DNA from: Chryseobacterium sp. H1D6B | Lineage (GTDB): Bacteria > Bacteroidota > Bacteroidia > Flavobacteriales > Weeksellaceae | Assembly (NCBI RefSeq): GCF_029892445.1 | Contig: NZ_JARXVJ010000001.1 | Span: 3,472,001 to 3,536,000 of the forward strand | DNA: 64,000 bases | Direction: 5' to 3' | In this document: piece by piece, positions 19,460-63,877 of the stretch | Layout of the letters: each line of letters begins with the position of its first letter | Numbering within the stretch: the first letter of the stretch is position 1 | Notes under the pieces: generated by a model | Told to the model about the DNA's origin: nothing | The model's input: only the letters and a program-made list of their open reading frames with translations | Database searches by the model: none | Made by a program: the position numbers and the translations under genes

Positions 19460-20773
19460 TTATTTTAAAAACCACAATTCAAAACTGCTTCCTTCTTCAA
19501 GTCCTTGGTAGTTGAGGTAGCCTCCATGGGCTTCCATGATGCTTTTGGTAAGGGTAAGCCCGATTCCTGAACCATTGGCTCTCGTTGTAAAAAACGGAAG
19601 AAAAATCTTGTCTTTAATTTCAGGAGTGATACCCGAGCCGTTATCGGTAATGCTTACAATAATTCTGTTATTTTGGGATCTGGCGGTTGTTTTTATGATC
19701 TTTTGCTCTTTTTCAGAAACTGCAGATATGGCATTGAGATAAAGGTTGATAAGGCTCCGCTCAATCATTTTTTCATCCGCTGAAACTATAAAATCTTCTA
19801 TTTCCTGAACGATAGAAATCTTATTTTTTTCAAATTCAGGTTTTAAAAAGCTCAACGCAGATTCAATTATTTTTTTTAGGGAAACGTCTGCCGTAACGGG
19901 TTTAGGAAGTTCTGCCACCTGGCGGTAGTCATCTACAAAGTGCAGGAGCTGTTTAGATTTTGAATTAATAATCATCAGGCTTTCCTTCATTTCCTGCTGG
20001 TCTTCTTTATCTACAGTTTCCTGGTTGCAGAGATATTCCAGATTCTGGATCAGGCTGTTCACCGGGGTCAGGGTGTTCAGAAGCTCGTGAGAGATCACTT
20101 TCATCAGATTGTTCCAGGCCAGCTTTTCTTTCTGTTCGATAATTTTCTGAAGAGACTCCATCGTGATAATGTAAAAACGGTGCTGGGTATTTTTCACCTG
20201 TTTGGTTCTGAGCGAAAATGACTGTTTGGAATTGCCGCGGATCGAAACATCGAAAAATTCCTGTGAACTGCTGTAGCCGGTATCTTCAATGATTTTATAA
20301 AACTCGGGAACTTTCGGTGCATACATTTTCCATGTATTGTATTTGGGAACCTGCAGGATATCGAGAAAAGCATTATTTACATAAAATACATTCCAGTCCT
20401 GATCTTTTTCTGAAAGGATCATCAGCCCTGTCTCCATCTGGTCCAGAATGCTCTCATAAAGCAGTTTGTAAGAAGATAAAGAAAACTGTTCTTCTTTGCT
20501 CTGGTAATATAAACGGACACTTCCGTCGAAAAGTTCTGTTCTGTTTTCTTTTGGAAATAATGAAAAATCTTTATTGCGGATGGAGGAGATGATCTTTTCA
20601 GTTTTTGCAGCCTGAGAAGCCGCGGAGGAATGTATTAAAGCAAGAAAAACAACCATTACTGCCGCAAAAAGAACCCCGTTGATCCATTCCTTTTCTAAAA
20701 AGAAGTGATAGCATGAAATTCCGCTGCTTACTGCAAGTAAGCTGTAGATCAGCCAAGAATAATTATTTCTCAT
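19460..20773 (-). CDS. NtrY-like membrane sensor histidine kinase
   Basis: Inner-membrane kinase of 437 residues, partner of the sigma-54 response regulator encoded upstream on the same strand (113-bp gap). Two N-terminal transmembrane helices (about 5-25 and 30-50) are followed by a PAS-like domain (about 105-210, QMETGLMILSEKDQDWNVFY). The dimerisation/phospho-acceptor box is VISHELLNTLTPVNSLIQNL near residue 228. The ATPase has N-box SLINLYLNAISAVSE, G1 DNGSGITPEIKDKIF and G2 RANGSGIGLTLTKSI. This H-box with HELLNTLTP is characteristic of the kinases that pair with NtrC-type regulators beside efflux genes in Bacteroidota. The signal is unknown, perhaps envelope stress or a toxic compound. 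Confidence 0.92.
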   Translation of the reverse strand: MRNNYSWLIYSLLAVSSGISCYHFFLEKEWINGVLFAAVMVVFLALIHSSAASQAAKTEKIISSIRNKDFSLFPKENRTELFDGSVRLYYQSKEEQFSLSSYKLLYESILDQMETGLMILSEKDQDWNVFYVNNAFLDILQVPKYNTWKMYAPKVPEFYKIIEDTGYSSSQEFFDVSIRGNSKQSFSLRTKQVKNTQHRFYIITMESLQKIIEQKEKLAWNNLMKVISHELLNTLTPVNSLIQNLEYLCNQETVDKEDQQEMKESLMIINSKSKQLLHFVDDYRQVAELPKPVTADVSLKKIIESALSFLKPEFEKNKISIVQEIEDFIVSADEKMIERSLINLYLNAISAVSEKEQKIIKTTARSQNNRIIVSITDNGSGITPEIKDKIFLPFFTTRANGSGIGLTLTKSIMEAHGGYLNYQGLEEGSSFELWFLK

Positions 20774-20886
20774 GAGTTTCCTTATATTTTTTTGCTGTAA
20801 TAATAATTTGATAGCAACTCCTTAATTTAGTTTAATGTCCTGATTGAAATCTCAGGTCTCATATCTATCTCCAGTATCTCATCTGC

Positions 20887-22230
20887 TTATAATCCAAATT
20901 TTTCCATTCTCCTGTAAAGTGCCGCCCGGGAAAGTCCCAGATCTTCTGCAGCCAGAGAAATATTTCCGGTATGTTTTTTCAATGCTTTTTTGATCAGTAT
21001 TTCTTCCATTTCTTCAATGTTAAGATTGATAATGGTATGTTCATCTTCTTCCGGCTGGGGCATTAATAACTGCAGGTTATTATCATTGGACAGAATAACA
21101 CTTCTTTCCAGACAGTGGTCGAGTTCACGGATATTTCCCGGCCATGGATATTTTTTTAAAGCAAGCAGTAAATCATCGGTAAGTGCAAGATGCTGCTGAT
21201 GGTATTTTTGTTTATACCGTTCCAAAAAATAATGGGCTAAAAGACCAATATCTTCCTGTCTCTCCCTTAAAGCCGGAATCTGAATTTCCACAGTATTGAT
21301 CCTGTAATAGAGATCCTGACGGAAACGGTTTTCAGCAACGGCTTTTTTAAGATTTTCATTGGTGGCAAAAATGAAACGGACATCTAATAAACGTTCCTTA
21401 GATTCTCCCAGTCTCGATAATTTTCTGTTCTGGATCAGGCTTAAAAGTTTCGTCTGAAGCTGAAGAGGCAGATTTCCGATCTCATCCAGAAAAACTGTTC
21501 CGTTCTGCGCATTCTCTATTTTTCCGGCATAATCCTGATGAGCATCTGTAAACGCTCCTTTTTTATACCCGAACAGTTCAGATTCAAAAAGGCTCTCCGA
21601 AATACTTCCCAGATCAATATGAACAAACGGCTGGTTTTTTCTTTCAGACTGCTCATGGATAGATTCCGCCAGTACATATTTTCCGGTCCCGTTTTCTCCC
21701 AAAAGCAGCACATTGGCATCGGTGGGTGCTACTTTTCTTATCTGTTCAAGAACTTCCTGCATTTTCAGTGAACGGCTGTCCAATTGATACTGATTATTTT
21801 TCTGGCTCACATTTTCCCATTGGCTGAGCTTCCTGTTTTTTCTGGAAATATCAACAGCAAGATTCACAGAAGCATAGAGTTTTTCATTATTCCATGGTTT
21901 AAGAATAAAATCTGAAGCTCCGTTTTTTAAAGCCTCTACAGCCAGTTCTACTTCGCCGTAAGCTGTCATCAGGATAATGGGAAGATGAGGTTCAAGTGTT
22001 TTGATCTCGTTCATCCAGTACAGACCATCTTGGCCGTTTTCAAATCCCTTTCTAAAGTTCATATCTAATACCACTGCATCGATTTGATTTTCAGTCATGA
22101 ATTTCATGATCTGAGCAGGCTTGCTGAGGGTGCTGACCTGTGAAAAAAATTTCTTGAGCCAGACCCTTGCAGAGAACAGAATATCTTCGTCATCATCTAC
22201 AATCAAAATATGGGCTTCTTTTTTACGCAT
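20887..22230 (-). CDS. Sigma-54-dependent NtrC-family response regulator
   Basis: Response regulator of 447 residues. The receiver (about 1-125) has the phospho-acceptor Asp in DAVVLDMNFRKGF and a long loop after it. The AAA+ sigma-54 interaction domain (about 145-380) has Walker A LLGENGTGKYVLAESIHE (Lys present, usual T/S replaced by Y), the sigma-54 contact loop GAFTDA instead of GAFTGA (a natural variant in active regulators) and Walker B GTVFLDEIGNLP. The arginine region is ALRERQEDIGLLAHYF. A Fis-type HTH ends the protein (ISLAAEDLGLSRAALYRRME). It should activate the divergent exporter operon and, by position of its sites, perhaps itself. Confidence 0.93.
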   Translation of the reverse strand: MRKKEAHILIVDDDEDILFSARVWLKKFFSQVSTLSKPAQIMKFMTENQIDAVVLDMNFRKGFENGQDGLYWMNEIKTLEPHLPIILMTAYGEVELAVEALKNGASDFILKPWNNEKLYASVNLAVDISRKNRKLSQWENVSQKNNQYQLDSRSLKMQEVLEQIRKVAPTDANVLLLGENGTGKYVLAESIHEQSERKNQPFVHIDLGSISESLFESELFGYKKGAFTDAHQDYAGKIENAQNGTVFLDEIGNLPLQLQTKLLSLIQNRKLSRLGESKERLLDVRFIFATNENLKKAVAENRFRQDLYYRINTVEIQIPALRERQEDIGLLAHYFLERYKQKYHQQHLALTDDLLLALKKYPWPGNIRELDHCLERSVILSNDNNLQLLMPQPEEDEHTIINLNIEEMEEILIKKALKKHTGNISLAAEDLGLSRAALYRRMEKFGL

Positions 22231-22283
22231 GCTGTTTTTACGAGTGTATTAAATTTTTGTTTATTAAAAAATGTCCGTTTAAA

Positions 22284-22320
22284 TGTTCATTTCCGAACAG
22301 AAAGTGTCCGATAATGAACA
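22284..22320. promoter_or_regulatory. Two phased 16-bp inverted repeats, likely enhancer sites of the NtrC-type regulator
   Basis: TGTTCATTTCCGAACA (22284-22299) and TGTCCGATAATGAACA (22305-22320) share the form TGT(T/C)C-N6-GAACA. Their centres are 21 bp apart, about two helical turns. A further half-site TGTCC lies at 22272-22276. They sit about 75-110 bp upstream of the sigma-54 -12 box, the usual distance for upstream activating sequences, and just before the regulator's own start. Confidence 0.7.
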
Positions 22321-22384
22321 GTTGGTATCCTGTTCTTAAAAATAATATTCCAGATTTTCAGCCACTTATAGGGTTGTGTTTTTC

Positions 22385-22400
22385 TGGCACTTGTGTTGTG
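22385..22400 (+). promoter_or_regulatory. Sigma-54 (-24/-12) promoter of the exporter operon
   Basis: TGGCAC-TTGTG-TTGT fits the consensus TGGCAC-N5-TTGC with correct 12-bp GG-to-GY spacing; the last C is T. It lies 34 bp upstream of the ATG at 22434, giving a leader of about 20 nt. Together with the upstream repeats and the adjacent NtrC-family gene this is a persuasive match. Confidence 0.72.
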
Positions 22401-22433
22401 TAATTGATTGTAATAAAATGAGTTATCTTTAAT

Positions 22434-23675
22434 ATGGATACGAAAATAGTAAAAAAGAAATCAAAATTAAAATTTGTTTTAGGCGGATTGGCAGTATTAG
22501 TTATAATATCGCTGTCCGGTCTGTATTTCAGCAGGCAGAAAAAAACGTACAATGTTGCAGGGGAAGATATCCAGCTGGACAATGTTACTCGGGGGAAATT
22601 TGAAGATATGCTGATGGTTACTGCACAGACGCAGTCTCTTAATTCATCCCTTGTGAATGTTCTGGAAGGCGGCGCGGTTAAAGAAATTTTTGCAGAAGAC
22701 GGACAGATGCTTACCAAAGACCAGCCCATTGCAAGGGTGTATAATCCCAATACAGAGTTTAACTATATGAATCAGGAAACCGGAATCATGCAGCAGATCA
22801 GCCAGATGAGAAGCACACTCCTTGAACTGAAAAACCAAGAACTGGCTCAGGATAAAGAACTCCTGCTTGCACAGAATGATTACAATACGGCACTGCAGAC
22901 TTATAATCTTCAAAAGCGTCTGTATGATGCAGAGATCGGAAAAAAAACTGATTATGATATCAGTATACAGAACCTTACTTATCAGAAACAGCGGAAGATT
23001 ATTGTAGAAAAAGGATTTTCTAATGAGAAAAATTCCAGAAACTCACAGATGGCCGCAATTAATTCATCAATAGGGCAGATGGATAAAAGTCTTCAGATCT
23101 TACGTTCCAACAAAAATAATTTCCTCATTACAGCACCGGCTTCAGGAAGGCTTTCATCATTCAGTATTTCAGTGGGGCAGAATCTTACCAGCGGCCAGAG
23201 TATAGGGAAGATAGATTTAATGGACGGCTATAAACTGACGGCCAAAGTAGATGAATATTACATCAACAAGCTGCAGAACGGTATCAAAGGAATTCTTGAT
23301 AACGACGGCAGGTCTTATGATGCTGTCATCACCAAAATTCTTCCTGAAGTAAAAGACGGGCAGTTTTTGGCAGAGCTTAATTTCACAGGTAAAAAACCTG
23401 AAAACCTGAAAATAGGGATGACCTTCGGAGTTAAACTAAAACTTTCAGCAGATACCCAGAGCACTATGATTCCCAAAGGAAATTTTTATAAAGACACCAA
23501 TGGAAAATGGATCTTTGTGGTCAAAGGAAATACAGCTGAAAAAAGAAATATAAGACTGGGACGTGAAAATCCGCTGTCTTATGAGGTCGTATCAGGTTTG
23601 AAAGCAGGGGAGACCGTTATTACATCAGATTATTCTGAGCTGAAGAAATATGAAATCCTTACCATTAAAAAGTGA
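22434..23675 (+). CDS. Periplasmic adaptor (membrane-fusion) subunit of an ABC exporter
   Basis: HlyD/MacA-type adaptor of 413 residues that should bridge the inner-membrane ABC permease and the TolC channel. A single N-terminal transmembrane anchor (about 12-32, LKFVLGGLAVLVIISLSGLY). A lipoyl/barrel-sandwich half (SLVNVLEGGAVKEIFAEDGQ, with Gly-Gln-x-Leu) leads into a long coiled-coil hairpin (about 100-210, rich in Gln/Leu). The second lipoyl half is LITAPASGRLSSFSISVGQN, and a beta-barrel with TAKVDEYYINKL follows. The C-terminal membrane-proximal domain ends in GETVITSDYSELKKYEILTI. First gene of the exporter operon, directly behind the sigma-54 promoter. Confidence 0.92.
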   Translation: MDTKIVKKKSKLKFVLGGLAVLVIISLSGLYFSRQKKTYNVAGEDIQLDNVTRGKFEDMLMVTAQTQSLNSSLVNVLEGGAVKEIFAEDGQMLTKDQPIARVYNPNTEFNYMNQETGIMQQISQMRSTLLELKNQELAQDKELLLAQNDYNTALQTYNLQKRLYDAEIGKKTDYDISIQNLTYQKQRKIIVEKGFSNEKNSRNSQMAAINSSIGQMDKSLQILRSNKNNFLITAPASGRLSSFSISVGQNLTSGQSIGKIDLMDGYKLTAKVDEYYINKLQNGIKGILDNDGRSYDAVITKILPEVKDGQFLAELNFTGKKPENLKIGMTFGVKLKLSADTQSTMIPKGNFYKDTNGKWIFVVKGNTAEKRNIRLGRENPLSYEVVSGLKAGETVITSDYSELKKYEILTIKK

Positions 23676-23849
23676 AAAAATAAACAGGCTGAAGCTGTCT
23701 TAAATGATTGAACAAAATCCTTATAAGCTTTACGCAAAAAAAAGAATTATAATTAAAAACGAATATTCATATATTTTAGATTCTTATTACCATCAGCTTT
23801 GAAAGGCTGTAATTGAATAACTAACACTACTAATAAACATACAAGTAAA

Positions 23850-24572
23850 ATGATTAATATTAATAACCTGTCAAAAATATACAATGCAGAAGATGTACAG
23901 ACCCATGCATTGAATGAAGTAAGCCTGAGTATTAAAGAAGGTGAATTTCTTGCCATAATGGGGCCTTCTGGCTGTGGTAAATCAACATTTTTAAATATCC
24001 TAGGGCTTCTTGACACAGCTTCTTCAGGTTCTTATCAATTTGAAGGGGCTGAAATGGCAGGACTGAGTGAAAGAAAAAAATCAGACGTCCGCAAAAAAAA
24101 TATAGGTTTCATCTTCCAGAATTTTAATCTGATCGACGAGTTGACGGTCTATGAAAACATTGAACTTCCCTTAATTTATAACGGAGTTTCTTCTTCAGAA
24201 AGGAGAAAGAAGGTAGAGGAAATTATGGAGAAGATCAACATCGCCCATCGTGCAAAACATTATCCCCAGCAGCTTTCGGGAGGGCAGCAGCAGAGAGCGG
24301 CCGTAGCAAGAGCCTTGGTTACAAAACCAAAACTTATCCTTGCAGATGAACCTACAGGAAATCTTGACAGCAATAATGGAAATGAAGTGATGAATCTTCT
24401 GGCTGAACTCCACAGACAAGGCTCTACGATTGTAATGGTAACGCACTCTTCCTATGATGCAGGCTATGCTTCCAGAATTATCAATATGAAAGACGGAGAA
24501 ATTTTTAATGAAGAGCATGCCTCCCAGAGAAAGGATGTATTTGCAAAAGCAGACGCTAAAGAATTTGAATAG
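23850..24572 (+). CDS. ABC transporter ATP-binding protein (MacB/LolD-type)
   Basis: ATPase of 240 residues. Walker A is GPSGCGKSTFLNIL near residue 36; the Q-loop is in FIFQNFNLIDELTVYENIEL; the ABC signature is LSGGQQQRAAVARALV near 138; Walker B with D-loop is LILADEPTGNLDSNNGNEV; the H-loop His is in IVMVTHSSYDAGYAS. ENIELPLIYNG after the Q-loop is typical of the MacB/LolD/FtsE subgroup that energises mechanotransmission permeases. It lies between the adaptor and the FtsX-like permease and powers the exporter. There is a 174-bp spacer before it, AT-rich and featureless except for a weak CAGC/GCTG hairpin. Confidence 0.95.
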   Translation: MININNLSKIYNAEDVQTHALNEVSLSIKEGEFLAIMGPSGCGKSTFLNILGLLDTASSGSYQFEGAEMAGLSERKKSDVRKKNIGFIFQNFNLIDELTVYENIELPLIYNGVSSSERRKKVEEIMEKINIAHRAKHYPQQLSGGQQQRAAVARALVTKPKLILADEPTGNLDSNNGNEVMNLLAELHRQGSTIVMVTHSSYDAGYASRIINMKDGEIFNEEHASQRKDVFAKADAKEFE

Positions 24573-24632
24573 ATCTATCCGCCGGCTCAAACCAAAATGA
24601 TTTAATAATTCATTATTAATACCCATACAATT

Positions 24633-27047
24633 ATGCTCAATAACTGGCTCAAAATTGCCTTGATCAATTATAAAAAAAATGCGCTGTCCACTATGATCAA
24701 CATATTTGGACTCACGGTAGGTCTTACTGGATTTATGATGATCCTGATGCATTGGAATGATGAGGAATCCTATGAAAAATGGAATCCCAAAAAAGACCAG
24801 ATCTATGCATTTCAGGCCTATTATGCAAAAGAAAAGTCTTATGGAGGGAATATCTCTTATCCGATGGCTTTTAATGCCGTAAAAAGAATTCCTGAGATTG
24901 AAGATTTTATCCTTTTCAACAGTTCGGGGATAGGACTTAAAATGACGACGAAATACACGACTGCTTTTCAGGAAGACGGGTATGCCGTATCAGAGAGCTT
25001 CTTTAATTTTTTTCCTTTTAAAATTATTTCGGGATCAGCAAAAAATGCTTTGAAAACCGAAACTTCTGTTGCTGTTTCTAAACAGACGGCTAAGAAATTA
25101 TTTGGAACGGTGAATGCGGCCGGAGAATCCATAAAATTTGATAATAAAAATTATATTGTTACTGCAGTGTATGAGCTCCCGGAGGAGAACAGCCAGATCA
25201 AACCAGAGTTTATTTTCATTCCAGCAGAACAGCTGAAAGCCGATAAAGAACAATGGGGGAATTATAACTTTGGTTGTTTCTTTATGCTTAAAAAGGGAGC
25301 TGATCCTGCGGTGGTTAAAGAAAAATTTAAAAAAGATATTATAGAACTGAGAGCAGCTCTCGGTGCAAAAGAATCAGGGATGAGTGTACAGCAGTATATG
25401 AACCTCTACGGCCCTGATGATCTCCTGCTTACTCCGCTGGAAGGCCTTAAACTTCATGCAAAATCGTCATGGTTTGGGACGGGAGATTTCAAAACGATCA
25501 TGATCTTATTTACACTGTCTGTTCTGATCCTCGTGCTGTCTGCTATCAATTTTATCAATCTGAAAACTGCAGAAGCATCACAGAGAGCTAAAGAAGTCGG
25601 GGTGAGAAAAGCCCTCGGAGGAACAAGATTTTCATTGATGATGCAGTTCTTTCTGGAGGCTTTCATGATCTGTCTGCTGTCTTACTTTTTAGCCCTGGCA
25701 CTAACCGAACTGCTGCTTCCATCTTTCAATAAGTTTTTTGATAAAGAAATTAAACTGAATGACTGGCATATTTACGCATACTCATTAGCAATGGTCATGA
25801 TAGTGACTTTATTGTCGGGATTAATTCCTGCTTTTTATCTTTCGAGTTTTAAAGCGATTGAAACACTGAAAGGGAATTTCTCAAGAAGCAGACACGGAGT
25901 ATGGCTCAGAAACGGAATTCTTACGCTGCAGCTTGTTATTTCTTCATTTTTTATAATCGGCGGATTGATTGTCCACAGCCAGGTACAATACATGATGAAT
26001 AAAGACCTTGGCTTTAATGGAAAACAAATTATGATGATCACTTTCAGCGAAAATGATCCGAAACCATGGCTGAAATATGAAAGACTGAAAACCGAACTTT
26101 CAAAGATTGAAGGAGTAGAAGCAGTTTCTTATGGGGAAGCAGTAGCAGGAAGCGGGAGGTCAAGTAATTCAAATATAGATTATCAGCAGCAGAGTATCAA
26201 TGCAGAGAACGGATCTATGGACTATGATTATCTCCAGTTTATAGGAGTGAAATTATTAAAAGGGCGGTGGCTGAACCCTGCTCTGGCTTCTGATACTATC
26301 AGCAATGCGATTGTAAATGAGGCGTTTGTTAAAAAATTAGGCTGGACAGATGAACAGGCTTTTCAAAGGAGTTTTAAGCCGGGATTTGATCATAAAAAAT
26401 ATAAAATAGTAGGGATTGTTAAAGATTTTAATCTTAAAAGTCTTAAATACAAAGTGGAGCCTGTAATATTTTTTCATTACAGACAGACAGAATGGAAAAG
26501 ATTTAATGTATACAATATTCAGGTGAAGATCAAACCGGATGATATTGACGGTACGATAAACAGAATTAAAAAATACTGGGGAACCTCAGCAGAGCCTGGC
26601 TATCCTTTTGATTATTATTTTATCAATCAAAAGTTTGCAAAAACTTTTGAACAGTATCAGAAACAGCAGACTTTATTTACTATTCTCAATGCGATGGTAC
26701 TTATGGTGGCTTTATTGGGACTGTTTGCTCTTTCCTCACTGATGATCGAGCAGAAGCTGAAAGATGTTGCTATAAGGAAAACATTGGGAGCATCAGATCA
26801 TATTCTGGTTTTTGGATTGACCCGCCAGTTTCTCTGGATTACTGTGACTGCTGTTTTTATAAGTATTCCGATCTGTTATTATCTGATGAATGAGTGGCTG
26901 AAGGATTTTGCCTACAGAATTGATATGCCGGTCTGGCCTTTTCTTGTCAGTTTCTGTGTGCTGCTCGGATTGACGTTTGCGGTTGTAAGTATCAAAGCTT
27001 ATAAAGCTACGAAAGTGAATCTGGTGAAATATCTGAAATACGAATAA
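24633..27047 (+). CDS. MacB/FtsX-type ABC transporter permease
   Basis: Permease of 804 residues with duplicated FtsX architecture: an N-terminal transmembrane helix (about 20-42), a large periplasmic MacB_PCD domain, then three helices (about 285-305, 340-360, 385-410) with the cytoplasmic loop KTAEASQRAKEVGVRKALGG. A second N-terminal helix (about 430-450), a second periplasmic domain and three more helices follow, with loop MIEQKLKDVAIRKTLGASDH. The repeated R-x-K-E-V-(G/A)-x-R-K-(A/T)-L-G-(G/A) coupling helix is diagnostic. The full duplication in one chain is usual in Bacteroidota. Start at ATG 24633 gives MLNNWLKIALINYKK, normal for the family. Confidence 0.93.
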   Translation: MLNNWLKIALINYKKNALSTMINIFGLTVGLTGFMMILMHWNDEESYEKWNPKKDQIYAFQAYYAKEKSYGGNISYPMAFNAVKRIPEIEDFILFNSSGIGLKMTTKYTTAFQEDGYAVSESFFNFFPFKIISGSAKNALKTETSVAVSKQTAKKLFGTVNAAGESIKFDNKNYIVTAVYELPEENSQIKPEFIFIPAEQLKADKEQWGNYNFGCFFMLKKGADPAVVKEKFKKDIIELRAALGAKESGMSVQQYMNLYGPDDLLLTPLEGLKLHAKSSWFGTGDFKTIMILFTLSVLILVLSAINFINLKTAEASQRAKEVGVRKALGGTRFSLMMQFFLEAFMICLLSYFLALALTELLLPSFNKFFDKEIKLNDWHIYAYSLAMVMIVTLLSGLIPAFYLSSFKAIETLKGNFSRSRHGVWLRNGILTLQLVISSFFIIGGLIVHSQVQYMMNKDLGFNGKQIMMITFSENDPKPWLKYERLKTELSKIEGVEAVSYGEAVAGSGRSSNSNIDYQQQSINAENGSMDYDYLQFIGVKLLKGRWLNPALASDTISNAIVNEAFVKKLGWTDEQAFQRSFKPGFDHKKYKIVGIVKDFNLKSLKYKVEPVIFFHYRQTEWKRFNVYNIQVKIKPDDIDGTINRIKKYWGTSAEPGYPFDYYFINQKFAKTFEQYQKQQTLFTILNAMVLMVALLGLFALSSLMIEQKLKDVAIRKTLGASDHILVFGLTRQFLWITVTAVFISIPICYYLMNEWLKDFAYRIDMPVWPFLVSFCVLLGLTFAVVSIKAYKATKVNLVKYLKYE

Positions 27048-27082
27048 CCGTTTTTAAAATACAGTAATATCAGAACGTACTC

Positions 27083-28381
27083 ATGAAAAATTTTATTTTC
27101 ATATTTTTTGTCGGTCTTTTTCCGGCACAGCAGTCCTGGAATCTGCAGCAGTGCCTGGATTATGCATCAGCCAATCATCCGTTAATAAAACAGGCTGCTG
27201 TTGCAGTACATAAAAATGAAAGGCTGGTCACTGGGGCAAAAGGAATGCTGCTGCCTTCCGTAGAAGCCGGTATGGATCATACCTACAGTTTTGGCTCCTC
27301 TATTAACCAGTCGAGTAATCAGCGGGAAAAACTTAATACACAGTATGACCGCTTTTATGCAAAAGCAGACTGGGAGCTTCTGAACTGGAAAAACTTCCTG
27401 AATATTTCCTTGTCTAAACTCAATAAGGAAACCAGTACTTACAAGCTGAAGCAGGCTCAAAATGAGGTGAAGCTGAACGTCATTCAGATGTTTTTTGCCT
27501 ACCAGAACAGCAGAAGCTGGCTGGATGTTTTAGAGACTCAGATTTCAGGGATTGAAGACCAGATCAAACGCACAGAAAAGGAAGTGGAAATCGGAAGCCG
27601 GCCAAAAAGTGACATATATGATATCAAAGCTAATCTGGGAACTTTACAGGAACAGTGGGTATCTGCGAAAAATCAGCGTGATCTGTCAAAAATTAATCTT
27701 CTTAATGCGCTTGCAGTTACTCAGGATTCTGTTGATTTTGTAATAAGTGATGAAGGAATCTTTTCTGAAACAGAGTTTCAAGATCCGGATTTCACAAAAA
27801 AGTTATTAGAGAAAAATCCAGCATATCAGTCGGTAATGGCAGAGATCAAAGCCCAGGAAAAAAGAAAAGATGCCGCAAGATCAGCTTATTGGCCGACTTT
27901 TAACGGAAGCTACAGCTGGTCGAGTTTTTATAATAAAGTCTTGGGAAAAGATGATATTGGTGCTGTAGGTTTTTCAGACCAGTTTGCACAGAATAAAAAC
28001 CAGTCTTTGAATTTCGGACTCAGCATTCCAATTTTCAATAAATTACAGGTGAAAACAAGTGTAGAGATCGCAAAATTGAATATAATCAACTCTAATTATG
28101 ATAAAGAATTGGTTATTAATACTCTTACACAAAGCATTAATTCAATCAAAGCACAGTTTTTAAATGCACAGGAGAAATATAATCTATTGGATGCTAATTT
28201 TGAAAATCAAAAACTCTCATTTCAGAAATCTGAAGAAAAATATAAAGAAGGGCTGATGGATGCTTATACTTTTTTTGTCGTGAGGAACGGATGGCTGCAG
28301 GCTAATTATAATCTTATCAGCAGTAAAAATGATGTTATCCAGCAGACGGAACTGTTAAAAGTAATGGAAACCGGTTTTTAG
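27083..28381 (+). CDS. TolC-family outer-membrane efflux channel
   Basis: Outer-membrane channel of 432 residues. A signal peptide (MKNFIFIFFVGLFPAQQ) is followed by WNLQQCLDYASANHPLIKQA, the standard TolC opening with L-x-x-C-L-x-x-A-x-x-x-x-P. Two OEP repeats of long helices follow (about 30-210 and 240-430), each with the barrel-strand turn, for example SFGSSINQSSNQ and LNFGLSIPIFNKLQVKTSVE. Last gene of the exporter operon, 35 bp after the permease, followed by a very strong terminator. It completes an adaptor-ATPase-permease-channel set. Confidence 0.93.
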   Translation: MKNFIFIFFVGLFPAQQSWNLQQCLDYASANHPLIKQAAVAVHKNERLVTGAKGMLLPSVEAGMDHTYSFGSSINQSSNQREKLNTQYDRFYAKADWELLNWKNFLNISLSKLNKETSTYKLKQAQNEVKLNVIQMFFAYQNSRSWLDVLETQISGIEDQIKRTEKEVEIGSRPKSDIYDIKANLGTLQEQWVSAKNQRDLSKINLLNALAVTQDSVDFVISDEGIFSETEFQDPDFTKKLLEKNPAYQSVMAEIKAQEKRKDAARSAYWPTFNGSYSWSSFYNKVLGKDDIGAVGFSDQFAQNKNQSLNFGLSIPIFNKLQVKTSVEIAKLNIINSNYDKELVINTLTQSINSIKAQFLNAQEKYNLLDANFENQKLSFQKSEEKYKEGLMDAYTFFVVRNGWLQANYNLISSKNDVIQQTELLKVMETGF

Positions 28382-63731: not shown

Positions 63732-63877
63732 AAAACTAATAACCATGAAAACTCAAATTAAACATGAGAATCGGAATAGAATAAACAATTACTGTGCCAA
63801 CATGAGTTCATCATTTCTTAATAAAAGTTATTTTTATGTTAAAGAATATTTAAAATAAAAACAAAAGATATTTTTTG

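Follow-up and report, generated by a model that had tools for sequence, protein, structure and literature searches.

Sigma-54 control of FtsX-type ABC permeases has already been predicted, and the kind of switch that we describe here is thus known. In its available part, the 2025 PLoS One paper in question (PMC12316311) predicts sigma-54 promoters in silico before genes of FtsX-like ABC permeases (COG0577/COG1136), FtsX-type antimicrobial-peptide permeases of Bacteroidota included, and presents this as the first evidence for such a link. Enhancer sites, a cognate activator and an exporter locus do not figure in that part of the paper, whereas at the locus reported here an activator, its enhancer, a probable loop site and the target occur together. 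In Flavobacterium psychrophilum, a related flavobacterium with one sigma-54 and three activators, sigma-54 promoters (motif SM4) were mapped and one of them was mutated; the selected promoters presented in the available part of that work drive chaperone, envelope and gliding genes, and there is no such ABC exporter circuit among them (PMC9723704). The portion of Francke et al. (2011, PMC3162934) open to searching mentions neither Bacteroidota nor ABC exporters under the terms that we used. Our search of the literature for such an exporter circuit in Elizabethkingia or Chryseobacterium returned nothing specific.

Activators of the NtrC/ZraR type consist of a receiver, an AAA+ domain and a Fis-type helix-turn-helix (HTH), and they work from pairs of dyad sites lying about 100 bp upstream, with an IHF bend site in between. 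The circuit described below shares the activator layout, the paired dyads and a putative intervening bend site, but it differs in the site itself (TGTYCG-N4-CGRACA), in having an ABC exporter as its target and in its -12 element, where GT is the usual pair. Bce-type systems of Gram-positive bacteria, on the other hand, place an FtsX-superfamily exporter beside a response regulator and a two-helix kinase with almost no extracellular loop. Here, too, an FtsX-superfamily exporter, a short-loop kinase and a response regulator are found together; however, the kinase belongs to another family, the regulator is a sigma-54 activator and not of the OmpR type, and the exporter has a periplasmic adaptor and TolC. 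The darobactin exporter DarBCD and MacAB-TolC are among the nearest named relatives of the adaptor, ATPase and permease, all of which score under the curated cut-offs, and they differ in that the permease here is a duplicated ADOP-like protein without a fused ATPase.

The locus lies on the single 4.56-Mb contig of Chryseobacterium sp. H1D6B, in the window, by which we mean the whole 64-kb stretch of DNA that was analysed. Its features are collected in Table 1. We conclude, with high confidence, that they make up a sigma-54 two-component circuit dedicated to a single target, the exporter operon.

Table 1. Features of the exporter locus and of the small-RNA candidate at the end of the window.
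Feature	Position	Strand	Basis
Sensor histidine kinase, 437 aa; N-terminal membrane region, PAS, HisKA, HATPase_c	19460..20773	-	Pfam; hydropathy
NtrC-family response regulator, 447 aa; receiver, sigma-54 AAA+, Fis-type HTH	20887..22230	-	Pfam; motifs
Enhancer site 1, TGTTCATTTCCGAACA	22284-22299	none	at least 90% conservation in 11/16 columns (53 representative loci)
Enhancer site 2, TGTCCGATAATGAACA	22305-22320	none	at least 90% conservation in 10/16 columns (53 representative loci)
IHF-like site TTTCAGCCACTTA, one mismatch from consensus WATCARNNNNTTR	22356-22368	+	conservation; putative function
Sigma-54 -24/-12 promoter TGGCAC-TTGTG-TTGT, TGGCACTTGTGTTGT	22385-22399	+	motif match; GG invariant in 53 representatives
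Periplasmic adaptor, HlyD/MacA type	22434..23675	+	Pfam HlyD_3; closest NCBIfam model DarC, under cut-off
ABC ATPase, MacB/LolD/DarD type	23850..24572	+	Pfam ABC_tran
Permease, duplicated MacB/FtsX-type, ADOP-like, 8 predicted helices	24633..27047	+	MacB_PCD x2 + FtsX x2
TolC-family outer-membrane channel	27083..28381	+	Pfam OEP
Multicopy small-RNA candidate, about 69 nt	63773 to 63705	-	promoter, terminator, recurrence
Sigma-54-type promoter TTGGCACAGTAATTGT	63785-63799	-	window's only other exact promoter match

By its Pfam content the exporter is a tripartite system of the MacAB-TolC type, with an adaptor, a MacB/FtsX-type permease, an ATPase and TolC, and the PDB relatives of its adaptor and permease are MacA and MacB. 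It is not MacB proper (PRK10535), as the ATPase and the permease are separate proteins and the permease is duplicated. The ADOP family model (TIGR03434, cut-off 622) matches the permease over nearly its full length with 236.7 bits; this is under the cut-off, although the layout is alike. The darobactin exporter models likewise fall below their cut-offs (DarC 157.7 of 450, DarD 286.1 of 375 and DarB 113 of 700).

The divergently transcribed gene encodes a response regulator with PF00072, PF00158 and PF02954 domains, a Walker A and a Walker B motif, and a GAFTDA loop, which is a single-residue variant of the GAFTGA type. A receiver, an AAA+ domain with a GAFTGA-type loop and an HTH define the NtrC family, and all of them are present; the closest PDB entry, 4l4u, belongs to the same family. 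The genome has one rpoN gene (Sigma54_DBD match, E 3.3e-52) and four full-strength NtrC-type sigma-54 activators. The earlier note had read the gene as an NtrC-family activator with a GAFTDA loop and its kinase next to it, everything from the sensor to TolC lying within 9 kb; open reading frames, Pfam matches and motifs agree with this, and the stretch from kinase to TolC (19460-28381) measures 8.9 kb.

In the kinase, HATPase_c and PAS are recognized by Pfam, while HisKA falls slightly under its cut-off. By hydropathy, residues 34-52 form a clear helix and the hydrophobic stretch at about 7-25 is weaker; the membrane region probably consists of two helices with a loop of about 6-8 residues, and the N-termini of the orthologues are alike. 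So short a connection between the helices would leave the kinase with almost no periplasmic sensing part. Its signal would therefore be intramembrane, or cytoplasmic via the PAS domain, or come from a partner such as the exporter.

Activators of the NtrC family bind dyad sites arranged in tandem, about 80-150 bp ahead of their promoter. In the gap between the divergent genes (22231-22433) we found two 16-bp imperfect palindromes, spaced 21 bp from centre to centre, the first of them 54 bp before the regulator start. They lie 65-101 bp upstream of TGGCAC and, counted from the predicted start, cover about -127 to -91. The motif TGTYC-N6-GAACA gives three strand-hits in the window, all at these two sites, against 0.25 expected, and for the pair taken as a single pattern the expectation in the 64-kb window is 0.00. 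In its generalised form the site is TGTYCG-N4-CGRACA. The two repeats and the 21 bp between their centres were described correctly in the earlier note, as was their place upstream of the promoter; its distance of 75-110 bp did not hold. A chance origin of promoter and sites is ruled out by the expectations in the window and by the cross-genome controls reported below. We also considered other, isolated occurrences of TGTYC-N6-GAACA in the genome, several of which are identical repeats, and the paired architecture was found at none. One such sequence, TGTTCTTTCCAGAACA, has identical copies on the contig at 1075925, 1082805, 2105576, 2112186 and 2889937 (G000:C1), two pairs of which are about 6.6-6.9 kb apart; these copies probably belong to a repeated element or rRNA operon and are not regulator sites.

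Conservation was examined in 80 orthologous loci, 81 with that of the window, from Chryseobacterium, Epilithonimonas, Kaistella, Elizabethkingia, Soonwooa, Cloacibacterium and Flavobacterium, of which 53 representatives were aligned. The regulator and adaptor genes are divergent in 80/80 orthologous loci, the order permease-ATPase-adaptor-regulator-kinase is kept in 78/80, and the TolC gene is part of the operon in 44/80. The enhancer sites are spaced by 21 bp in 72 of the 81 loci and by 22 bp in the remaining 9. The conservation upstream of the orthologous operon that the earlier note proposed as a check was thus clearly found, for the sites and for their spacing as well as for the gap to the promoter.

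As palindromic sites between divergent genes could work both ways, it is conceivable that these sites mainly autoregulate the regulator and kinase genes, with exporter activation through the -24/-12 element as a secondary effect. We consider this unlikely. The gap between site 2 and the TGG of the promoter is 62-69 bp in all 81 loci, whereas the interval separating the sites and the regulator ranges from tens of bases to more than 1-2 kb, owing to another gene that occupies exactly this place in about 20 species. A fixed distance to the promoter combined with a variable distance to the regulator indicates that it is to the adaptor, and not to the regulator, that selection ties the sites. Nevertheless, given their divergent position, the enhancer sites may have an added effect on the regulator gene itself. 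The gene inserted between enhancers and regulator (L060, L063, L066, L069, L072, L073, L076-L079, L082, L085, L089, L094, L099, L102 and L106) encodes a YhcG-type PDDEXK nuclease (DUF1016) or an AAA_14/DUF4143 ATPase, and both are present in L099. In other species it is missing or decayed, and the enhancer sites always remain by the adaptor.

A sigma-54 promoter is defined by GG at -25/-24 and GC at -13/-12 with ten bases between them. The adaptor promoter has the GG and the spacing, and its -13/-12 pair is GT, not GC: the -12 element is TTGT, a single-base departure from the textbook TTGC. It ends 34 bases ahead of the adaptor ATG, as the earlier note had it, and the transcript start is predicted at about 22411. 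Exact matches to this promoter number two in the 64-kb window, against 0.14 expected by chance. Since the -12 element strays from the GC consensus, and since sigma-A promoters of Bacteroidota are hard to spot by eye, one might suppose that the -24/-12 match is fortuitous, that the operon is read from a sigma-A promoter and that the palindromes are bound by some other repressor or activator. This seems very improbable to us. The -24 GG is 100% conserved in the alignment (n=53 representatives), so the possibility of its loss in orthologues, on which the earlier note would have given up the promoter, did not materialize. TTG is nearly invariant and the spacing is exact across genera, and the -24 element is also present at orthologous loci that a strict regular expression had missed. 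Moreover, the regulator that co-occurs with the palindromes is a sigma-54 activator, and in more distant parts of the phylum the sites precede even better promoters, such as TTGGCACAGTAATTGAC. The -13/-12 pair in the 81 loci is GT in 65, AC in 8, GC in 6 and TC in 2, and this suggests that the classical -12 C is dispensable at the exporter locus in this lineage.

Between the enhancers and the promoter, near -49, there is a further conserved element, the IHF-like site. A bend site in such a position is often used for looping from NtrC-type enhancers. C22359, A22360, T22366 and T22367 are invariant and A22368 is 98% conserved in the 53 representatives, and the core CA-N5-TTR is present in 81/81 loci, nearly always equidistant from the promoter. 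The consensus is matched with no more than one mismatch in 55 of the 81 loci, and exactly in 13. Two HU/IHF-family proteins are encoded in the genome, and a protein of this family may bind the site. Across the phylum the site is convincing in Flavobacteriales only, and beyond that lineage the signal is weak (8/33 against 2.8 expected). The circuit had been called complete in the earlier note, and while all the elements that it named are indeed present, this conserved loop site had been overlooked.

Among the 53 representatives, 90% identity is reached in none of the 18 columns that precede site 1 and in none of the first 27 spacer columns that follow site 2, and this contrast with the conserved columns sets sites and promoter apart from their own surroundings. 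That the conservation reflects recent common descent only, and not function, is hardly credible and is already contradicted, for although many of the 80 loci come from closely related species, 90% positions are found in the sites and the promoter and in none of these 45 flank and spacer columns, and the architecture is retained in Flavobacterium loci with a regulator 53-54% identical as well as in loci further out in the phylum.

We assessed co-occurrence in each of 118 genus genomes. Of these, 46 have the regulator, and the adaptor is found in the identical 46. The enhancer pair was found in 44 genomes and the enhancer together with the promoter in 40, in both cases exclusively among the 46 regulator carriers, at one place each and beside the adaptor; neither pattern occurs in the 72 genomes without the regulator, and reversed control patterns gave 0 and 1 matches in the 118. 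A wider regulon was considered and rejected: there is no second enhancer-plus-promoter place in the 118 genomes, and a single pair per genome. Such co-occurrence of regulator, adaptor and enhancer, at one place per genome, argues for a dedicated single-target circuit, and the switch very probably activates a single membrane export pump. Anatomy, geometry, conservation and co-occurrence are all matters of computation here, as is the absence of the enhancer pair from any other place in these genomes. A separate observation concerns four genomes (G019, G051, G063 and G113) with stop codons within the regulator, due either to decay or to assembly errors. The enhancer-promoter pattern and the adaptor persist in them, the latter at full length in G019, G051 and G113 but not in G063, whose completeness is low.

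A close relative of the regulator is encoded in 102 of 395 genomes of the phylum, and exporter genes are divergent to it in 54 of 60 sampled loci. With one mismatch allowed, TGTYCG-N4-CGRACA is present in 22 of the 60 upstream regions, against 0, 0 and 1 for controls and 1 for genic DNA, and several loci have complete pairs followed by very good promoters, for example TGTTCGATATCGAACA and then TTGGCACAGTAATTGAC. The arrangement thus predates the genus, and related modules of this enhancer type are found across the phylum. In about half of the deeper loci we did not find a clear site of this type, and there it would have drifted or been replaced. Wherever a site with up to two mismatches is present, every activator with a readable C-terminus has an LYRR-type recognition helix, and in the sampled loci of LYRK and LYNK activators no such site was found. 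Absence of the site where the helix is not of the LYRR type supports the regulator as its binder, a correlation confounded by relatedness.

The second exact promoter match of the window belongs to a different element, near the end of the window. This promoter is invariant in 12 aligned loci, the 130-bp intergenic block around it is found in 60/60 genus genomes with up to 97% identity, and the match is unlikely to be due to chance. The predicted start, 63773, falls on the edge of a stretch that has further copies in every genome, and this stretch looks like a multicopy small RNA. Its body (42-70 nt) recurs with other promoters and terminators, with three exact-core copies in this genome; some copies have sigma-54-type promoters, in some a TAnnTTTG box is present, and tRNA-like sequence precedes two of them. 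The 3' end is a terminator, ACCCAGC-UUCG-GCUGGGU, with a UUCG loop. A search of Rfam with the candidate gave no match at curated thresholds. Within the body, window positions 63734-63751 are reverse-complementary to a start-codon context, AACTAATAACCATGAAAA. Several real genes of this genome (L231, L232, L233 and L234) have this context at their starts, with 1-2 mismatches, and a role of the small RNA in masking translation starts is suggested. This candidate may be more novel than the exporter circuit.

As to the exporter circuit, a plausible sequence of events can be proposed. The membrane kinase would detect an envelope or exporter-related signal and phosphorylate the divergent regulator, whose dimers would then bind the palindromes near -119 and -98, which lie two turns apart on the same helix face. 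Position, conservation and family suggest that the bound dimers assemble an AAA+ ring. An HU/IHF-type protein probably bends the DNA near -49, and the GAFTDA loops would reach the sigma-54 polymerase, which the ring would remodel at -24/-12. Transcription of the adaptor, ATPase, permease and, here, TolC would follow from the predicted start. The near lack of a periplasmic part in the kinase invites the further question whether the exporter itself is the sensor, with substrate load signalling to the kinase and from there to the exporter operon only; the circuit would then be a phylum-wide sigma-54 counterpart of Bce flux-sensing, an idea that we consider doubtful.

What the locus offers for Bacteroidota is a cleanly delimited sigma-54 circuit, in which the activator, the enhancer motif, the probable loop site and the single target operon can each be named. 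In this way the genome-scale prediction that sigma-54 controls FtsX-type ABC exporters would become a specific mechanism with known sequence elements.
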